Below, in pieces: positions 1 through 6,157 of a DNA stretch of 64,000 bases. Below the pieces are notes generated by a model. That model was not told the origin of the DNA. It saw nothing but the letters and a program-made list of their open reading frames with translations, and ran no database searches. Source of the DNA: Oscillospiraceae bacterium (GTDB taxonomy: Bacteria; Bacillota; Clostridia; Oscillospirales; Oscillospiraceae). The position numbers and the translations under genes are program-made. Numbering within the stretch: position 1 is the first letter of the stretch; each line of letters begins with the position of its first letter. The stretch spans positions 62,001 through 126,000 of the forward strand of contig CACZDN010000016.1 in the NCBI GenBank assembly GCA_902779945.1, given 5' to 3'.

Positions 1-635
1 CGGACCACGCACTCGATCACGCCGCCGACGGAGTCCCCGTCCGCACGGGCACTTTGGATCGCCGCGCGCATCTTCTCACCTGCGGCATCGTCGACGACGG
101 GAAATTCCTTCCCTGCGACCGACGCCTCGAAGGGGCTTCGATCCCAAATCCCGGCGATGGCCGCGATGCGCGCGTCCACCGTGACGCCGCGCCTTTCGAG
201 TATCTTTTTGAGGATCCCGCCCGCGACACAGAGCGGCGCAGTCAGCCTCCCGGAGAAGTGCCCGCCGCCGCTGCAGTCCTGAAAGCCGCCGTATTTTACC
301 TCCGCCGTGTAGTCGGCGTGGCCGGGGCGCGGCATGATCCTGAGCTGCGAATAGTCCTTCGGGCGCGTATTAGCGTTCCGGATGACCGCCGTGAGCGGCG
401 CGCCGCAGGTGAAGCCGTCCTTGAGCCCGCAGAGAAATTCCGGCCTGTCCTCCTCCCTGCGGGGGGTGGACCAGTCGTTCCGGCCCGGGGCGCGGCGGTT
501 CAGAAAGAGCTGGAGCGCGTCCAGGTCCACGGGGATGCCGGCGGGCAGCCCGTCCAGCGTCATGCCGACCGCCTCCGAATGGCTCTGGCCGAAGATGCTC
601 AGCCGCAGTCTTTGTCCGATAAAGGTACTGCTCAT
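1..635 (-). CDS. aroC: Chorismate synthase, 3' end outside the window
   Basis: Makes chorismate from 5-enolpyruvylshikimate-3-phosphate, the last common step of the shikimate pathway, with reduced FMN as cofactor. Reading left from ATG 635, the protein begins MSSTFIGQRLRLSIFGQSHS, which fits the family start with its G-(E/Q)-SH-(G/S) motif. About 50-150 residues in are RRAPGRNDWSTPRREED, the phosphate- and FMN-binding part, then RPGHADYTAEVKYG and the GGGHFSGRLTAP signature. The frame is still open at base 1, so about 210 residues are present of a usual 350-390. The start overlaps the aroA stop by 4 bases (ATGA), so it is the last visible gene of a coupled operon. Identification is secure; the C-terminus is unseen. 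Confidence 0.95.
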   Translation of the reverse strand, partial: MSSTFIGQRLRLSIFGQSHSEAVGMTLDGLPAGIPVDLDALQLFLNRRAPGRNDWSTPRREEDRPEFLCGLKDGFTCGAPLTAVIRNANTRPKDYSQLRIMPRPGHADYTAEVKYGGFQDCSGGGHFSGRLTAPLCVAGGILKKILERRGVTVDARIAAIAGIWDRSPFEASVAGKEFPVVDDAAGEKMRAAIQSARADGDSVGGVIECVV

Positions 636-1894
636 CTCGCGCACCTCCAGAAGTCCTCCCAGAAAGCGGGATAGGATTTTTGTACACAGTGTGCGCCGCC
701 GATCGTTACGCTCTCACGGCACAGGCCGGCGGCGACGGCGGCGCTCATGGCAATGCGGTGATCGTTGCAGGAATCGACCCAACCGCCGCGAAGTCCGCCT
801 GTCCCGTGGATAACGAGGCCATCGGGCAGTTCCTCCACCGCCCCGCCGACGTCGCTTATCAGCTTTGCCGTCGTTTGCAGACGGTCGGACTCCTTCATGC
901 GAAGCCGTGCCGCGTTGATGATGCGCGTGTTCCCCGCCGCCCCGCAGGCAAGCACCGACAGGACCGGAACTAGATCAGGGATGTCGGCGGCGTCAATGGT
1001 GACAGGCCGCAGCTCCGTGCGCCGTACTGTCACCTCGCCCCCGGAGGCTTCGACCGAAGCGCCGAACTGTCTTAATATGTCCAGAACGGCCATGTCCCCC
1101 TGGGCAGAGCGGAGATTCAGCCCACGCACGGTGACGCCCTTTTCACTCAGCGCGCCCATGCAGAGGAAGAAGGCGGCGTTGGACCAGTCCCCTTCCACGC
1201 GCAGGATGCCGGGCAGCGTAAAACGCTGTGAGCCGGGGACGCGCCAGCTCTGTCCCTCCCGCTCGAGCCGGACGCCGGAGAGCGTGAGGGCGTCCTCCGT
1301 CAGGCGTATATAGCCCGCGGATTCCAGCGTCCCCTCCACCGTGACCGTGCTGTCGCCTTCAAGCCGCGGCAGGGCCATCAGCAGACCGGAGAAATACTGG
1401 CTGGACACGTCCCCCGGCAGGCTGTACGTCCCGCTTTTGAGCTGTCCGCCGAAGCACAGCCAGCTTCCGTCCCGGGAAATCGCCATCCCGTGGGCGCGCA
1501 GGACGTCTTCATAGACCTGCATGGGCCGCTCGGGCAGGCGTCCTTCCATTTCGAAATACCCGGAAACGCCCAGTGCCCCGGCCACGGGGAGCAGGAAGCG
1601 CAGCGTCGAGCCGCTCTCCCCGCAGGGGAGCAGACCGCCGCCGACAGGCTTTTGAACGGGCGTGACACGGATGCGGCGTCCGCTCGTTTCGATCCCCGCG
1701 CCGAGCGCTTTGAGGCACTTCGCCGTGGCGAGGATGTCCCTGGAGAAGCCGTCGATCAGAAGCGTTGTTTTCTCCGACCCCAGCGCGGCGCAGATCAGCA
1801 GGCGGTGGGCAACGGATTTGGAGGAGGGAATGCAGACTTCGCCCGCACAGGGCCCCGGTGTCAGCCTGACAGAAAAACTGCGTTCCTTCTTCAT
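632..1894 (-). CDS. aroA: 3-phosphoshikimate 1-carboxyvinyltransferase (EPSP synthase)
   Basis: Transfers enolpyruvate from PEP to shikimate-3-phosphate in the cytoplasm. The 420-residue protein has the expected length and family landmarks: PSSKSVAHRLLICAAL near the N-terminus (catalytic Lys and phosphate contacts), CGESGSTLRFLLP near residue 90, and RMKESDRLQTTAKLI plus DSCNDHRIAMS near the C-terminus. Ala replaces the more common Gly in the GNSGTTxR-like segment only in part, so I do not predict glyphosate behaviour. ATG 1894 is chosen over the in-frame start 21 bases upstream because it gives the same 4-base ATGA overlap with aroB that recurs through this operon. The gene lies between aroB and aroC. 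Confidence 0.95.
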   Translation of the reverse strand: MKKERSFSVRLTPGPCAGEVCIPSSKSVAHRLLICAALGSEKTTLLIDGFSRDILATAKCLKALGAGIETSGRRIRVTPVQKPVGGGLLPCGESGSTLRFLLPVAGALGVSGYFEMEGRLPERPMQVYEDVLRAHGMAISRDGSWLCFGGQLKSGTYSLPGDVSSQYFSGLLMALPRLEGDSTVTVEGTLESAGYIRLTEDALTLSGVRLEREGQSWRVPGSQRFTLPGILRVEGDWSNAAFFLCMGALSEKGVTVRGLNLRSAQGDMAVLDILRQFGASVEASGGEVTVRRTELRPVTIDAADIPDLVPVLSVLACGAAGNTRIINAARLRMKESDRLQTTAKLISDVGGAVEELPDGLVIHGTGGLRGGWVDSCNDHRIAMSAAVAAGLCRESVTIGGAHCVQKSYPAFWEDFWRCAR

Positions 1895-2943
1895 CTCAGC
1901 CCCGCCTCCAGCCATTTGTACGCCTCCTCCGCCGTCAGGGGGAGGATATCGCAGGAGCCGATCGCGCGCGGCACGATCAGGTGCAGCCTGCCGCCGGAAA
2001 TCTTCTTGTCAAGCAGCAAGGCGTCATACAGCTCATCCGCGCTGTACGCCGTCTCGGTCGGGAGACCGAAGGCGCGCAGGAGAGCGATCACCGCGTCCCG
2101 GTCATCCGGGGCGAGCAGGCCCTCGGCGCAGGCCGCGCGGCAGATCATCGCCATGCCGACAGCCACGGCCTCCCCGTGCAAAAGCGCGTAGGCGCTGCGG
2201 CTCTCGACCGCGTGGCCGAAGGTATGGCCCAGGTTCAAAAGCCGCCGCCTGCCGGTGTCCCGCTCGTCCTCCGCGACGATCTCGGCCTTGCGTCTGACGC
2301 AGGTCTCGATCACCTCGCCAGGCTCGATGTCGTCCTTTCGGAGCTTTTCAAAGAGCGCCCTGTCGCCGAGGACAGCGTACTTGACAACCTCCGCAAAGCC
2401 CGCGCGCAGCTCGCGTCCGGGCAGGGTGTTCAGGGTATCGGTGTCGCAGAGGACCAGGGCGGGCTGGTAAAAGGCCCCCACCTGGTTTTTGCCCTGGGGC
2501 AGGTCGATGGCGGTCTTGCCGCCGACGGAGGAGTCCACCGCCGCCAGAAGCGTCGTCGGGACCTGGACGCAGGCGATGCCGCGCTGATAGGTCGCCGCCG
2601 CGAAGCCGGACAGATCGCCGGTCACACCGCCGCCGAGGGCGACGACGCAGTCGCTTCTCGTAAAGCGATTTGCGGCCAGAAATTCCAGCAGCTCCCCGTA
2701 GCGGCGCAGGCACTTGGTCGCCTCCCCCGCGGGAAAGACAAGGGACGCCGTCTCGAGTCCGGCGGAGCGCAGGCTCCCGAGCGCCCGCTCCCCGTAGAGG
2801 GGAAAGACGTTCTCACCGGCGATCACCGCGCAGCGCTTCGCCCCGGTGCAGGCGCGCACGCCCGCGCCCAGGCTCTCCAGCAGCCCCGCGCCGATGCGCA
2901 CCTCATAGCTTCCGGAGGGCGCGTTTACCGTCACGCATCGCAT
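1891..2943 (-). CDS. aroB: 3-dehydroquinate synthase
   Basis: Converts DAHP to 3-dehydroquinate using NAD+ and a divalent metal. The 350-residue protein has the NAD-binding ALGGGVTGDLSGFAAATYQRG segment in parts, the PTTLLAAVDSSVGGKTAIDLP substrate segment, and the metal-binding histidines in LNLGHTFGHAVE and LLHGEAVAVGM. ATG 2943 shares one base with the tyrA stop (TGATG), and the end overlaps aroA by 4 bases, so translation is probably coupled on both sides. A longer in-frame extension upstream is low-complexity Arg/Gly-rich shadow sequence over tyrA and was rejected. The C-terminus has normal family length. Confidence 0.95.
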   Translation of the reverse strand: MRCVTVNAPSGSYEVRIGAGLLESLGAGVRACTGAKRCAVIAGENVFPLYGERALGSLRSAGLETASLVFPAGEATKCLRRYGELLEFLAANRFTRSDCVVALGGGVTGDLSGFAAATYQRGIACVQVPTTLLAAVDSSVGGKTAIDLPQGKNQVGAFYQPALVLCDTDTLNTLPGRELRAGFAEVVKYAVLGDRALFEKLRKDDIEPGEVIETCVRRKAEIVAEDERDTGRRRLLNLGHTFGHAVESRSAYALLHGEAVAVGMAMICRAACAEGLLAPDDRDAVIALLRAFGLPTETAYSADELYDALLLDKKISGGRLHLIVPRAIGSCDILPLTAEEAYKWLEAGLR

Positions 2944-3776
2944 CAGCCGTCGATCTCCTCCTTGCGCTTCTTGCCCTCGGCCAGCAGCGCGGTCAGGCCC
3001 TCTCTGTCGCCCGCCGCCATGGCGTCGCGGTAGGCCGCCATGTTTTCGATGATGCAGTCCACCTCGCGGATGAGGTTTTCGCGGTTTTCCAGGAAGAGCT
3101 CGGCCCACATGGCCGGGTTCAGCCAAGCGACGCGGGTCATGTCCTTGTAGCTGCCGGCGGAGAAGCCGTGGTGCAGCTTTGCCGTGGGACTTTTGACATA
3201 GGCGTTGGAGACCACATGCGCAAGCTGGGAGGTGAAGGCGATCATCTCGTCGTGCGCCTCGGCGGTGGTAACCGAATAGCGGCCGAAGCCCGCCGGGGAC
3301 AGGAGCTCCTTCACGCGGTCGAGCAGGAAGATGTCGTCAAACTTCGGGGGGACGATGACCATGGGCTGGCGGACGTACATGCTGGCCTTGGCGTATTTGT
3401 AGCCGGAGTACTGGGTGCCCGCCATGGGGTGCCCGCCGACGAAGGTGAAGCCGTACTCCTCCGCGATGGGGAAGGCGCGCTCGCACACGAGGCGCTTGGT
3501 GCCGCAGCAGTCCATCACGATGGGCCCGGGCCCGATGTACGGGCCGAACTCCCGCAGCGTGTCGATGACCGCCTCGGGAAAGATCGTCAGCAGGACGAGG
3601 TCGCAGTCCCGGATGTTCTCTTTGGTGAGCTCGCCGTCCACGTCGCAGGAGAGCTGCGCGAAGTCCAGGACCGATCTGGTCCTGTTGTGGGCCAGCACGG
3701 TCCAGCCGGCGGCGTGATAAGCCTTGACGAAGCTGCCGCCGATGAGGCCGAGGCCGAAAACGCCGACGGTGCTCAT
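2943..3776 (-). CDS. tyrA: Prephenate dehydrogenase
   Basis: Oxidatively decarboxylates prephenate to 4-hydroxyphenylpyruvate on the tyrosine branch, with NAD(P)+. The 277-residue protein opens with the Rossmann motif VGVFGLGLIGGSF. It contains the diagnostic GGHPMAGTQYSGYKYA active-site segment around residues 115-130 and a helical C-terminal dimerisation half. There is no C-terminal ACT domain, so any feedback control by tyrosine would have to act elsewhere. The start (ATG 3776) overlaps the aroF stop by 4 bases. Arogenate use instead of prephenate cannot be excluded from sequence. Confidence 0.92.
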   Translation of the reverse strand: MSTVGVFGLGLIGGSFVKAYHAAGWTVLAHNRTRSVLDFAQLSCDVDGELTKENIRDCDLVLLTIFPEAVIDTLREFGPYIGPGPIVMDCCGTKRLVCERAFPIAEEYGFTFVGGHPMAGTQYSGYKYAKASMYVRQPMVIVPPKFDDIFLLDRVKELLSPAGFGRYSVTTAEAHDEMIAFTSQLAHVVSNAYVKSPTAKLHHGFSAGSYKDMTRVAWLNPAMWAELFLENRENLIREVDCIIENMAAYRDAMAAGDREGLTALLAEGKKRKEEIDG

Positions 3777-4774
3777 TGCAGCGCCTCCCTCACGGCGCGG
3801 ACCTTTCCGGCCAGCGCTTCAAACTCCTCGGGCCGCAGGCTCTGCGCCCCGTCGCACAGGGCGTGCAGGGGATCGTTGTGGACCTCGATGATGAGGCCGT
3901 CGGCCCCGCCGGCGGTCGCGGCCAGCGCCATCGGGGGCACGAGCCGCGCAATGCCGGTGGCGTGGCTGGGATCGACGATCACGGGCAGGTGGCTCAGCTC
4001 ATGCAGCATGGGCACCGCCGAGAGGTCGAGGGTGTTTCTGGTGTAATCGGAGAAGGTGCGGATGCCGCGCTCGCAGAGGATGACCTGCTCGTTGCCGCTG
4101 GCCATGATGTACTCCGCGCTCATCAGCAGCTCCTTGAGGGTGTTGGCGAGGCCGCGCTTGAGGAGGATGGGCTTGTTCACATGCCCCAGTTCGCGCAAAA
4201 GATCGAAGTTCTGCATGTTGCGCGCCCCGATCTGGATGACGTCCACGTCCTCAAAGAGATGCATGTCGTTGATGTTCATGAGCTCTGTCACGATGGGAAG
4301 GCCCGTCTCCTTCCGCGCGATCCGCAGCAGCTCCAGCCCCTCGGCCTTGAGGCCGGGAAAGTCGTAGGGCGAGGTGCGGGGCTTGAACGCGCCGCCGCGC
4401 AGCATCTGCGCCCCGGCCTGCTTCACCGCCTTCGCAACCGTCACGATCTGCTCCTCGGACTCCACGGAGCAGGGGCCCGCGATCATCACAAAGTTGCCCG
4501 CGCCGATCTTCACGCTGCCGACCTCCACCACCAGGGATTCGGGGTGGAATTTGCGGCTGCTCATCTTGAAGGGCTCGCTCACACGCTTGACGCTGTCCAC
4601 AATGTCCAGGCTCTCCACGAGGTCGATATCGACGGCGGAGGTGTCGCCCACGAGGCCCAGAACGGTCTGGAACTCGCCGTTGGAGATGTGGATGCGCAGG
4701 CCCAGCGCCTTGAGCCACGCGATGAGCCGCGCCATTTTTTCCTCGGATACGCCGTGCTTTAAGACTACGATCAT
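3773..4774 (-). CDS. aroF: DAHP synthase, type I-beta with N-terminal ferredoxin-like domain
   Basis: Condenses PEP with erythrose-4-phosphate, the entry step of the shikimate pathway. The 333-residue protein has an N-terminal ferredoxin-like regulatory domain (about residues 1-70, like the Thermotoga type), followed by the TIM-barrel. Visible motifs are AGPCSVES (metal-binding Cys), LRGGAFKPRTSPYDF, QIGARNMQNFDLL, KRGLANTLKE and DPSHATG (metal-binding His). ATG 4774 is preceded by an AGGAGG Shine-Dalgarno 8 bases upstream. A longer reading would run back through the attenuator hairpin and is rejected. It is the first enzyme gene of the operon and sits directly behind the attenuator, so it is the expected control point. 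Confidence 0.95.
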   Translation of the reverse strand: MIVVLKHGVSEEKMARLIAWLKALGLRIHISNGEFQTVLGLVGDTSAVDIDLVESLDIVDSVKRVSEPFKMSSRKFHPESLVVEVGSVKIGAGNFVMIAGPCSVESEEQIVTVAKAVKQAGAQMLRGGAFKPRTSPYDFPGLKAEGLELLRIARKETGLPIVTELMNINDMHLFEDVDVIQIGARNMQNFDLLRELGHVNKPILLKRGLANTLKELLMSAEYIMASGNEQVILCERGIRTFSDYTRNTLDLSAVPMLHELSHLPVIVDPSHATGIARLVPPMALAATAGGADGLIIEVHNDPLHALCDGAQSLRPEEFEALAGKVRAVREALQ

Positions 4775-4793
4775 TTCTTTTTCCTCCTGAAAT

Positions 4794-4823
4794 ACAAAAA
4801 CCGCACAGGATAACCTGTGCGGC
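4794..4823 (-). terminator. Attenuator terminator in the aro operon leader
   Basis: On the minus strand a perfect 9-bp stem (4801-4809 with 4814-4822, four-base loop) is followed by TTTTTGTATTT. It lies between the leader peptide and the aroF Shine-Dalgarno, so it would end transcription before the enzymes. This is the terminator half of a peptide-leader attenuator. Confidence 0.9.
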
Positions 4824-4857
4824 AAAACAGCTTGGGTCCGTCTTTTTTGCGCCACAA
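4815..4857 (-). promoter_or_regulatory. Predicted antiterminator of the aro leader
   Basis: Segment 4845-4857 is complementary to 4815-4827 on the minus strand over 13 positions with two central mismatches and one G-U pair. Pairing would consume one arm of the terminator stem. The upstream arm begins about 8 bases after the leader stop codon. A ribosome finishing the leader would mask it, while one stalled at the Tyr codons would leave it free. This is inferred folding, not measured. Confidence 0.7.
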
Positions 4858-4864
4858 ATTATCC

Positions 4865-4921
4865 TTACCCGCGAGAGCCGGTAAAGAGATAATAATAGGC
4901 GTAGAAAAGACCGGTTTTCAT
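4865..4921 (-). CDS. Phe/Tyr-rich leader peptide of the aro operon
   Basis: An 18-codon ORF encodes MKTGLFYAYYYLFTGSRG. It has four Tyr and two Phe among 18 residues, including three consecutive Tyr codons (4889-4897). An AGGAG Shine-Dalgarno precedes its ATG by 8-9 bases. It lies about 30 bases downstream of a consensus promoter and ahead of an intrinsic terminator. The position and codon content match classical transcription-attenuation leader peptides: scarcity of charged tRNA-Tyr or tRNA-Phe would stall the ribosome and favour readthrough into aroF. It is too short for standard gene callers. Function is inferred from architecture. Confidence 0.88.
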   Translation of the reverse strand: MKTGLFYAYYYLFTGSRG

Positions 4922-4956
4922 TCTTACAAACTCCTGTTTCTGAATTTGACGTCTGC

Positions 4957-4985
4957 ATTTTAACGCAAAAGCGCCATACTGTCAA
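4957..4985 (-). promoter_or_regulatory. Promoter of the aro operon
   Basis: Minus-strand TTGACA (4980-4985), a 17-base spacer and TAAAAT (4957-4962) make a near-consensus sigma-A promoter. Transcription would begin near 4950, about 30 bases before the leader peptide ATG. Confidence 0.88.
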
Positions 4986-5179
4986 GCTGCATAAGAATAC
5001 GAAGAATCTCGCCCCGCCGCCTTGTTTTTTGGAAATAACCACAAAGGGGGGCGGCGCTTTGCGACCTTTTTCGTCTCTTCCCGAAAAATTCATGATTTTG
5101 CTCTGGCGTTTACATAAAAACTGTGTTATGATGACTCAAATGCGAAAACCGAATCCATTATATAGAAAGAGTTGGTTTT

Positions 5180-6157
5180 ATGAAAAAAGCGCTTATTCCC
5201 CTGCTTTTGATCCTGACCCTGCTGCTGACGGGATGCAGCGGTCTCTCCTCCCCCGCAGCGGGCAGCGCGAAGCCCACCGCCACCGCGACGAACACGCCGG
5301 TCCCCACGCCGACCCCCACGCCCACGCCGAAGCCCGTGTCGCCCGAGGTGCAGGCCCTCCAGGTCCGCAACGCCGAGGTCTGGCGCGAGATGCACCGGCG
5401 CGACGGGATGGACGGCCGCCTGATGATCCCCTCGGCCGGCATCAACGTCGCCCTCTTCACCTGGATCGACGCCTCCGTTGCCGAGACCGACCCCGACAAG
5501 ATCGTCGAGCAGGTGCGTCAGCTCATCGTGGACTACGAGGACAGCGCCCTGCTGTACAACGACGGGCTGGGCAACGTGATCGCGGACCACTCCAATCAGG
5601 ACTTTCTCACGCTCTCGACCGTAAAGCCCGGCGACCCGGCCTACATCCTCGCGGGCGACCATGTGGTCAGTCTCGTCTGCGATCTTGTGACCGACGGCAT
5701 CAACACCGGCACTGGCATCACGGACTCGGCCAACAGGCAGATCACCGCCGGCGAGGATTACACCTGCTACACCTGTCTGGAGGACTGGACCCATATTCAG
5801 GTCGTCGGCTTCAAGATCACCGATCAGGACTTTTTCGATGTGGACCGCTTTGACGTCGTCGGCAAGACCCCGCGGGACGGCGAGACAGCGTCCGCCCAGA
5901 GCGCGGCGGCTACCCCCGTGCCCGCGCAGGTCACGCCGGCCTCCGCTACGCCGATGCCGACGCCCACGCCGATCTACACGCCCGTGGTCTCTCCCACGCC
6001 GAGTCCGACACCCACGGCCGAGCCGCGCCGCAATGACCCGGCCGATACCAATGACCCCTATTACGATTACTATGACATCCTCGGCGGCTACGACATCTAT
6101 GCCGACGCGGACTCCTCCGGCGCCTCCTCCAGTGTTGACGGCGGGTATCTGACGTAA
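5180..6157 (+). CDS. Lipoprotein with a sortase-like domain
   Basis: The 325-residue protein begins with a lipoprotein signal peptide (LLLTGCS lipobox, Cys about residue 19), then a Thr/Pro-rich linker (about 25-52) built of TPTP units. The folded part (about 60-220) has a sortase-like order: GRLMIPSAGINVALF, then IADHSNQDFLTLSTVKPGD (a His before a Phe and a Leu-x-Val-x-x-GD segment), then YTCYTCLEDW. His and Cys positions fit the sortase catalytic pair, but the usual Arg after the Cys strand is not evident. The C-terminus is another Pro/Thr linker ending in a Tyr/Asp-rich tail. The RBS is weak (GAAAGAG). Sortase-like is a family guess from motif order; a catalytically altered or binding-only version is possible. 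Confidence 0.55.
   Translation: MKKALIPLLLILTLLLTGCSGLSSPAAGSAKPTATATNTPVPTPTPTPTPKPVSPEVQALQVRNAEVWREMHRRDGMDGRLMIPSAGINVALFTWIDASVAETDPDKIVEQVRQLIVDYEDSALLYNDGLGNVIADHSNQDFLTLSTVKPGDPAYILAGDHVVSLVCDLVTDGINTGTGITDSANRQITAGEDYTCYTCLEDWTHIQVVGFKITDQDFFDVDRFDVVGKTPRDGETASAQSAAATPVPAQVTPASATPMPTPTPIYTPVVSPTPSPTPTAEPRRNDPADTNDPYYDYYDILGGYDIYADADSSGASSSVDGGYLT

Follow-up and report, generated by a model that had tools for sequence, protein, structure and literature searches.

A predicted tyrosine- and phenylalanine-reading leader-peptide attenuator before the aroF operon of an Oscillospiraceae bacterium and its relatives in Clostridia

From our analysis of a 64,000-nucleotide stretch of an Oscillospiraceae genome (hereafter the window), the leader that precedes an aromatic amino acid biosynthesis operon is very probably a ribosome-mediated transcription attenuator of the trp/phe kind, which reads charged tRNA-Tyr and tRNA-Phe. 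Its parts lie on the minus strand between 4985 and 4796 in the order promoter, Shine-Dalgarno, leader, antiterminator strand, and terminator, followed by aroF, which, the Shine-Dalgarno aside, is the order given in the original prediction for this DNA. Judging from the sequences of relatives, aromatic leader attenuators before aroF are widespread in Clostridia.

The first structural gene, aroF (3773..4774, minus strand, as are all features below unless noted), encodes a type I-beta DAHP synthase with an N-terminal ferredoxin-like domain (NF006421, 483 bits, and TIGR01361, 390 bits, both over cut-off; Pfam PF00793 and PF18152), so the identity predicted for the head of the operon stands. It is followed by tyrA (2943..3776), which is prephenate dehydrogenase-like (models of up to 131.6 bits, all under their curated cut-offs), aroB for 3-dehydroquinate synthase (1891..2940; TIGR01357, 344 bits, over cut-off), and aroA for EPSP synthase (632..1894; TIGR01356, 335 bits, over cut-off). 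The complete gene order is aroF-tyrA-aroB-aroA-aroC-pheA-aroEK-aroQ, with aroC and all later genes lying beyond the window edge. Past that edge, pheA (chorismate mutase/prephenate dehydratase) and aroQ (type II dehydroquinase) scored over a prephenate dehydratase and a dehydroquinase cut-off, respectively, and two genes stayed under cut-off, namely aroC, of which half was scanned, and aroEK, a fused shikimate dehydrogenase/kinase between pheA and aroQ. Since the operon includes both tyrA and pheA, its products are Tyr and Phe, both of which are read by the leader. No chorismate-binding (PF00425, trpE-type) gene was found in the genome's own assembly (85.8% complete), and Trp synthesis may be absent from this genome or encoded in the unassembled part. 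The closest named aroF relatives, in a list that may omit records of the window's own genome, are at most 91% identical and mostly come from ruminant-gut records titled Clostridiales, Oscillospiraceae, or Ruminococcaceae.

The sigma-70-type promoter (4957..4985) consists of TTGACA at 4985-4980, a 17-nt spacer, and TAAAAT at 4962-4957, and its 11 of 12 consensus matches bear out, as near-consensus, the consensus promoter that had been proposed. A Shine-Dalgarno sequence AGGAG (4931..4935) precedes the leader peptide ORF MKTGLFYAYYYLFTGSRG (4865..4921; stop codon TAA at 4867-4865), which was recognized by its sequence and by similar leaders in relatives and has the predicted 18 codons with four Tyr (three consecutive) and two Phe. 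Tyr9-Tyr10-Tyr11 and Phe13 are the candidate control codons. Within the leader, region 1, CTTTACC (4880..4886; Phe-Thr codons), is the 5' strand of a protector hairpin whose partner GGTAAGG (4863..4869) spans the stop codon and runs into the 5' end of region 2, both strands being assigned by conservation of helix 1:2. The antiterminator is formed by region 2, GGATAATTTGTG (4853..4864), as 5' strand and region 3, CACAGGTTATCC (4808..4819), as 3' strand, both of which were assigned by strand pairing and covariation; another short paired stretch lies beyond region 2. The antiterminator pairing of the original prediction does exist, but the 4845-4857 assigned to it covers only the 3' part of region 2 and flanks, and its start, placed about 8 bases past the stop codon, is actually one base after it (4864-4853), directly following the stop and thus about 7 bases from the predicted position. 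The intrinsic terminator (3:4; 4796..4823), identified by terminator scan and covariation, agrees with the one expected and has a 10-bp stem (4823-4814 / 4809-4800), a TTAT loop, and a U run; region 3 overlaps its 5' arm, its loop, and the beginning of its 3' arm. The RNA 4775-4960 folds with -59.5 kcal/mol (z -4.36), and none of 200 dinucleotide shuffles was equally stable. The 451-base region scanned contained 3 sites resembling promoters and 2 resembling terminators, where 0.5 of either kind would be expected. Upstream of the promoter, a divergent ORF on the plus strand (5180-6157) has a lipoprotein-like N-terminus and Pro/Thr-rich stretches, and matched nothing in Pfam or NCBIfam at E 0.001.

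In the mechanism that we propose, RNA polymerase would initiate from the promoter at 4985-4957, with a ribosome translating the leader. When Tyr- or Phe-tRNA is scarce, the ribosome would stall at Tyr codons 9-11 or at Phe13 and cover region 1, blocking the protector hairpin 1:2, and the free region 2 would capture region 3 as it is synthesized, so that no terminator forms and aroF-tyrA-aroB-aroA-aroC-pheA-aroEK-aroQ would presumably be transcribed as a whole. When both tRNAs are charged, the ribosome would reach the stop codon, which adjoins region 2, and mask region 2, leaving the terminator 3:4 to form; in the absence of translation, 1:2 and 3:4 would both form and transcription would stop as well. 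Either Tyr or Phe could dominate as the signal. The locus has the anatomy that defines an attenuator, namely a leader ORF with a ribosome-binding site, a run of end-product codons, an intrinsic terminator ahead of the first structural gene, a mutually exclusive antiterminator 2:3 with covariation support, and a protector 1:2 that a ribosome on the control codons could reach with its footprint; by computation, region 2 is free when the ribosome sits on those codons and masked when it sits on the stop codon.

In simulated folding, the window RNA formed the terminator with a probability of 0.98 both without a ribosome and with a ribosome at the stop codon, and the antiterminator with a probability of 0.99 with the ribosomal A site at Tyr10 or Tyr11, 0.88 at Phe13, and 0.55 at Tyr9. 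This computed register agrees with the earlier proposal that a ribosome at the stop codon favours termination and one stalled at the Tyr codons leaves region 2 free, and the folding in two states that had been suggested as a check gave the antiterminator and the terminator accordingly. When 15 footprint settings were tried, the window RNA switched in all of them with the ribosome at Tyr11, Leu12, or Phe13, in 13 with it at Tyr10, and in 10 with it at Tyr9; among the stalled states the switching codons were confined to codons 8-15 in all settings. The non-aromatic Leu12 and Thr14 within the run also switch the RNA, and the register by itself therefore does not pick out Tyr and Phe. As a general test across species, the full-length equilibrium proved weak; a stall codon lowered the terminator below 0.5 in only 26 of 111 loci, so that antitermination would need to work kinetically in most species. 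RNAs ending after region 3 were used next, and at 116 loci the median P(2:3) was 0.14 for the ribosome-free RNA, rose to 0.94 with the ribosome at the best stall codon, and fell to 0.00 with it at the stop codon. A stall codon giving P(2:3) > 0.5 was found in 115 of the 116 loci; the same level was exceeded without a ribosome in 42 (the window included, at 0.83) and with a ribosome at the stop codon in 10. Aromatic codons made up 770 of 1,747 switch-on codons, which is less than half, versus 146 of 983 other codons (0 of 2,000 circular shifts; 116 loci).

We then compared the regions upstream of aroF in relatives. An aroF match at E 1e-40 was present in 118 of 150 family genomes, and 90 upstream regions from family genomes were combined with 80 loci from named records, of which the 164 with at least 280 bases (88 and 76, respectively) were kept for the leader count; about 60 further, mostly weaker family aroF matches were left out, except nine second copies. 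With a leader defined as a Shine-Dalgarno-preceded ORF with at least five aromatic residues within ten codons, 136 of the 164 upstreams (the window's own counted) carry an aromatic-dense leader, versus 6.1 expected from shuffles: 79 of 88 in family genomes and 57 of 76 in named records, or 133 of 161 without three duplicates. The finder saw no leader in 28 upstreams, at least six of which are false negatives; the entire attenuator is present in L100 and L113, and L080, L083, L084, and L086 have leaders with a score of 4. The upstream of L144 showed no leader on inspection. The attenuator of L100 (3600-3800), the closest of the named relatives, is set back from aroF by some 200 bases more, and additional DNA separates its terminator from the gene. 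The terminator was absent by the finder in 20 of the 136 leaders, and equally good terminators arose in 5 of 1,090 shuffles. In other orders of the class, a leader was found in 22 of 39 upstreams versus 1.6 expected, 18 of them with a terminator, and cognate 2:3 duplexes had -14.9 kcal/mol versus -9.6 for noncognate ones (0 of 5,000 permutations). Six aroF relatives with 66-72% identity and enough upstream DNA (L148, L150, L167, L169, L171, and L177) come from records titled Bacteroidaceae, Bacteroidales, or Candidatus Colivivens. None of these six has a convincing leader, five scoring below five and the finder's match in L167 being without 2:3 pairing, which might be explained by transfer of the gene with the switch left behind or by bins that carry a wrong label.

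The competing helices are kept as well. Among 106 non-redundant loci, cognate duplexes were more stable than noncognate ones both for 2:3 (-18.7 versus -13.2 kcal/mol) and for 1:2 (-15.7 versus -11.4 kcal/mol), with 0 of 2,000 permutations in each case. In a 42-sequence alignment, helix 1:2 has 8 pairs with 91.1% of cells paired and 23 cells changed on both sides versus 9.7 in shuffles; helix 2:3 has 17 pairs, 90.8% paired, with 28 such cells versus 8.4; and helix 3:4 has 11 pairs, 89.3% paired, with 44 versus 16.5. These cell counts were reached by 0 of 500 shuffles each, and slid versions of the three helices were 25 to 61% paired. Pairs changed on both sides numbered 2 in 1:2, 7 in 2:3, and 7 in 3:4, counts that 390, 4, and 9 of 500 shuffles reached, respectively; the covariation of helix 1:2 therefore rests mainly on two pairs. 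These shuffle and permutation statistics leave the relatedness of the sequences in. Loss of the leader ORF or hairpins in relatives had been named as the result that would speak against the switch, and was looked for; the homologue alignment shows instead that leader, terminator, and competing helices are kept and covary.

The leader peptides themselves are loosely constrained. Their length ranges from 15 to 44 codons (116 loci), and the five codon columns ending in region 1 hold Tyr or Phe in 35, 36, 41, 35, and 41 of 42 sequences. In the window's group, Tyr and Phe interchange freely, flanking residues vary, and little else than aromatic density is kept. The codon-position entropies (0.52, 0.92, and 0.59 bits) lack the pattern expected of coding constraint, the second positions being most variable because of Tyr-Phe swaps. 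In many relatives (e.g., L013, L014, L018, L023, and L024), the leader ORF continues through region 2 (e.g., KVKVIRAA), and region 2 then serves as codons and antiterminator at once. A Shine-Dalgarno-preceded ORF conserved in kind could conceivably encode a functional small protein, with the terminator as a merely constitutive attenuator. Such a protein would be expected to keep more than the aromatic density seen in the window's group, the aromatic codons are in register with the switch as the circular shifts indicate, and a constitutive terminator would not need a region 2 that covaries with the terminator arm, as region 2 does; we regard this explanation as extremely improbable.

T-boxes are the usual and expected tRNA sensors in Firmicutes. 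A Tyr-specific T-box, in which uncharged tRNA-Tyr would bind the leader RNA directly and favour the antiterminator with no need of translation, would fit the T-boxes that are known for tyrosine genes (PMC1262725), and the genome itself has eight T-box matches, three of them over cut-off. Yet none of the eight is on the window's contig, no T-box (RF00230) was found at the leader, a lenient scan of 4700-5100 gave four weak matches of which none is a T-box, and the conserved elements at the leader are the ORF and a 12-bp strand, all of which makes a T-box here exceedingly unlikely. Across the whole window, no Rfam 15 family reached its gathering score. The lenient matches at the leader include Arrc14 (23.7 bits; cut-off 99) and RF04312 (19.8 bits; cut-off 59). 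At cut-off, nine relatives tried that carry such a leader showed no Rfam match to the leader element, and the single match among the relatives tried is an FMN riboswitch elsewhere in L101.

We searched the order with a covariance model built from the 42 sequences. It matched in 40 of 295 genomes, own genome included, and of 30 loci read from 41 matches, 25 lie before aroF and five before a TrpB-like gene. The latter five (L181, L182, L183, L184, and L190), from other families of the order, have Trp-bearing leaders at about 1440-1660 of the oriented locus (L182 incomplete); L181 has IWWRF, as read directly from its DNA, and the other four have KYWRYF or KYWYFYF. The TrpB-like identity was obtained by NCBIfam scan for three and by translation for the other two. 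A link of RF04312 (Rfam trpB) to these Trp-type leaders was considered and dropped, as neither these five loci at gathering score nor the own genome over cut-off gave a match.

A second leader type before aroF (L070, L074, L075, L076, L078, L081, L085, L086, and L087) has GWARF or SWARF and GFFG-like ends, together with the Arg codon CGA and an almost invariant TGGGCTCGATTTA, and its constancy exceeds what 2:3 pairing accounts for. Nascent peptides can arrest the ribosome from within the exit tunnel, as TnaC does. Were the leader of this kind, the peptide would sense free Tyr, Phe, or another ligand in the tunnel rather than its codons sensing charged tRNA, and the GWARFM and nearly fixed CGATTT kept in the second type (e.g., L070, L076, and L087), beyond the needs of codon counting, would be in line with it. 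The window's group, with its free Tyr/Phe swaps, variable flanks, and variable length, argues against arrest, which we consider very unlikely.

Five family genomes have a second aroF copy with a Tyr-rich leader (e.g., YGYGYYRCYF) followed by tyrA (2 of the 5 tyrA genes by scan, 5 of 5 by tblastn), and the other aroF copy of these genomes has a Phe-rich leader followed by aroB-aroA-aroC, with pheA in 4 of 5. Four other second aroF copies, with trp genes downstream, have no leader. Among 133 leaders with downstream DNA, leaders scoring below 5 being left out, tyrA was found downstream of 107 and not found for 26 (two of which, L064 and L179, show no aro gene downstream). The mean Tyr/(Tyr+Phe) was 0.50 with tyrA versus 0.22 without (Mann-Whitney p about 1e-10), and YY occurs in 84 of 107 leaders versus 2 of 26. 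When codon type and tyrA were compared by independent contrasts, with an aroF tree of 96 loci, r was 0.13 (p 0.21), and because the association is not significant after this phylogenetic correction, we do not claim that leaders are Phe-shifted where tyrA is lacking. Three lineages fit such a shift (the second leader type, L124, and L156), L028 and L163 do not, since the neighbours that have tyrA are just as poor in Tyr, and L175, L179, and L167 run in the opposite direction. It is conceivable, though somewhat less than an even bet, that one Clostridia scaffold has been retargeted by codon replacement to Tyr/Phe (aroF-tyrA), to Phe plus one Trp (aroF-aroB-aroA-aroC-pheA without tyrA), and to Trp (TrpB-like). 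If true, this scaffold would be a so far unlisted RNA family spread over the class, and would include the first leader-peptide attenuators with tyrosine as the main signal. Loci whose related scaffolds carry Tyr-heavy, Phe-heavy, or Trp-bearing leaders lend themselves to the study of changes in attenuator specificity, and a leader switch that reads Tyr and Phe would give a direct and testable rule for when these bacteria make or import aromatic amino acids.

In the literature searched, we found nothing on attenuation of the first step of aromatic synthesis in gut Clostridia, and among the matches listed, with subscription journals mostly uncovered, no paper that treats a Tyr/Phe leader of a clostridial aroF; the main text of PMC8040213 has none of the terms sought. 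The original prediction had called such a leader much less described than Trp attenuators, which, within that literature, holds for Clostridia and for Tyr and not for the idea itself, as Corynebacterium and Acholeplasma illustrate. An aroR leader of the aroF operon in Corynebacterium glutamicum was reportedly described by Neshat et al. in 2014. In E. coli, pheL-pheA and trpL-trpEDCBA have a leader ORF and regions 1-4 with mutually exclusive 2:3 and 3:4 hairpins. The leader described here is built likewise, and differs in reading Tyr and Phe, in its operon and lineage, and in a stop codon that adjoins region 2. Both E. coli attenuators are mentioned in PMC11802643. According to excerpts of PMC11802643 and PMC4046766, the C. 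glutamicum leader has Phe-Tyr-Phe before the aroF (DAHP synthase) operon, and ribosome stalling raises transcription under Phe limitation; according to the former, Tyr availability is without effect there. Compared by these partial descriptions, it too is an aromatic leader peptide before a DAHP synthase operon, but it belongs to another phylum, whereas here Tyr codons dominate and the operon includes tyrA and pheA. The Acholeplasma uORFC-13-1 motif likewise places a uORF, with a possible promoter, a ribosome-binding site, and an adjacent terminator, before aroF; as described in part of PMC8632094, its U run encodes at least one Phe and not Tyr, and its 24 examples are from Acholeplasma and environmental sequences only. 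Leader-peptide attenuation in Firmicutes is also represented by a leucine-rich attenuator peptide of Staphylococcus aureus (PMC5794164, in excerpt) and by His leaders before hisS/hisZ in bacilli (PMC2965389, in excerpt), which involve other amino acids, genes, and class; in 2010 the latter were, to the knowledge of their authors as stated in that excerpt, the first outside Proteobacteria and Actinobacteria apart from ermC. In essence, the aroF leader is well supported as an attenuator, and its novelty lies in its specificity (Tyr as an unusual signal) and its lineage (Clostridia) rather than in the principle of attenuation.
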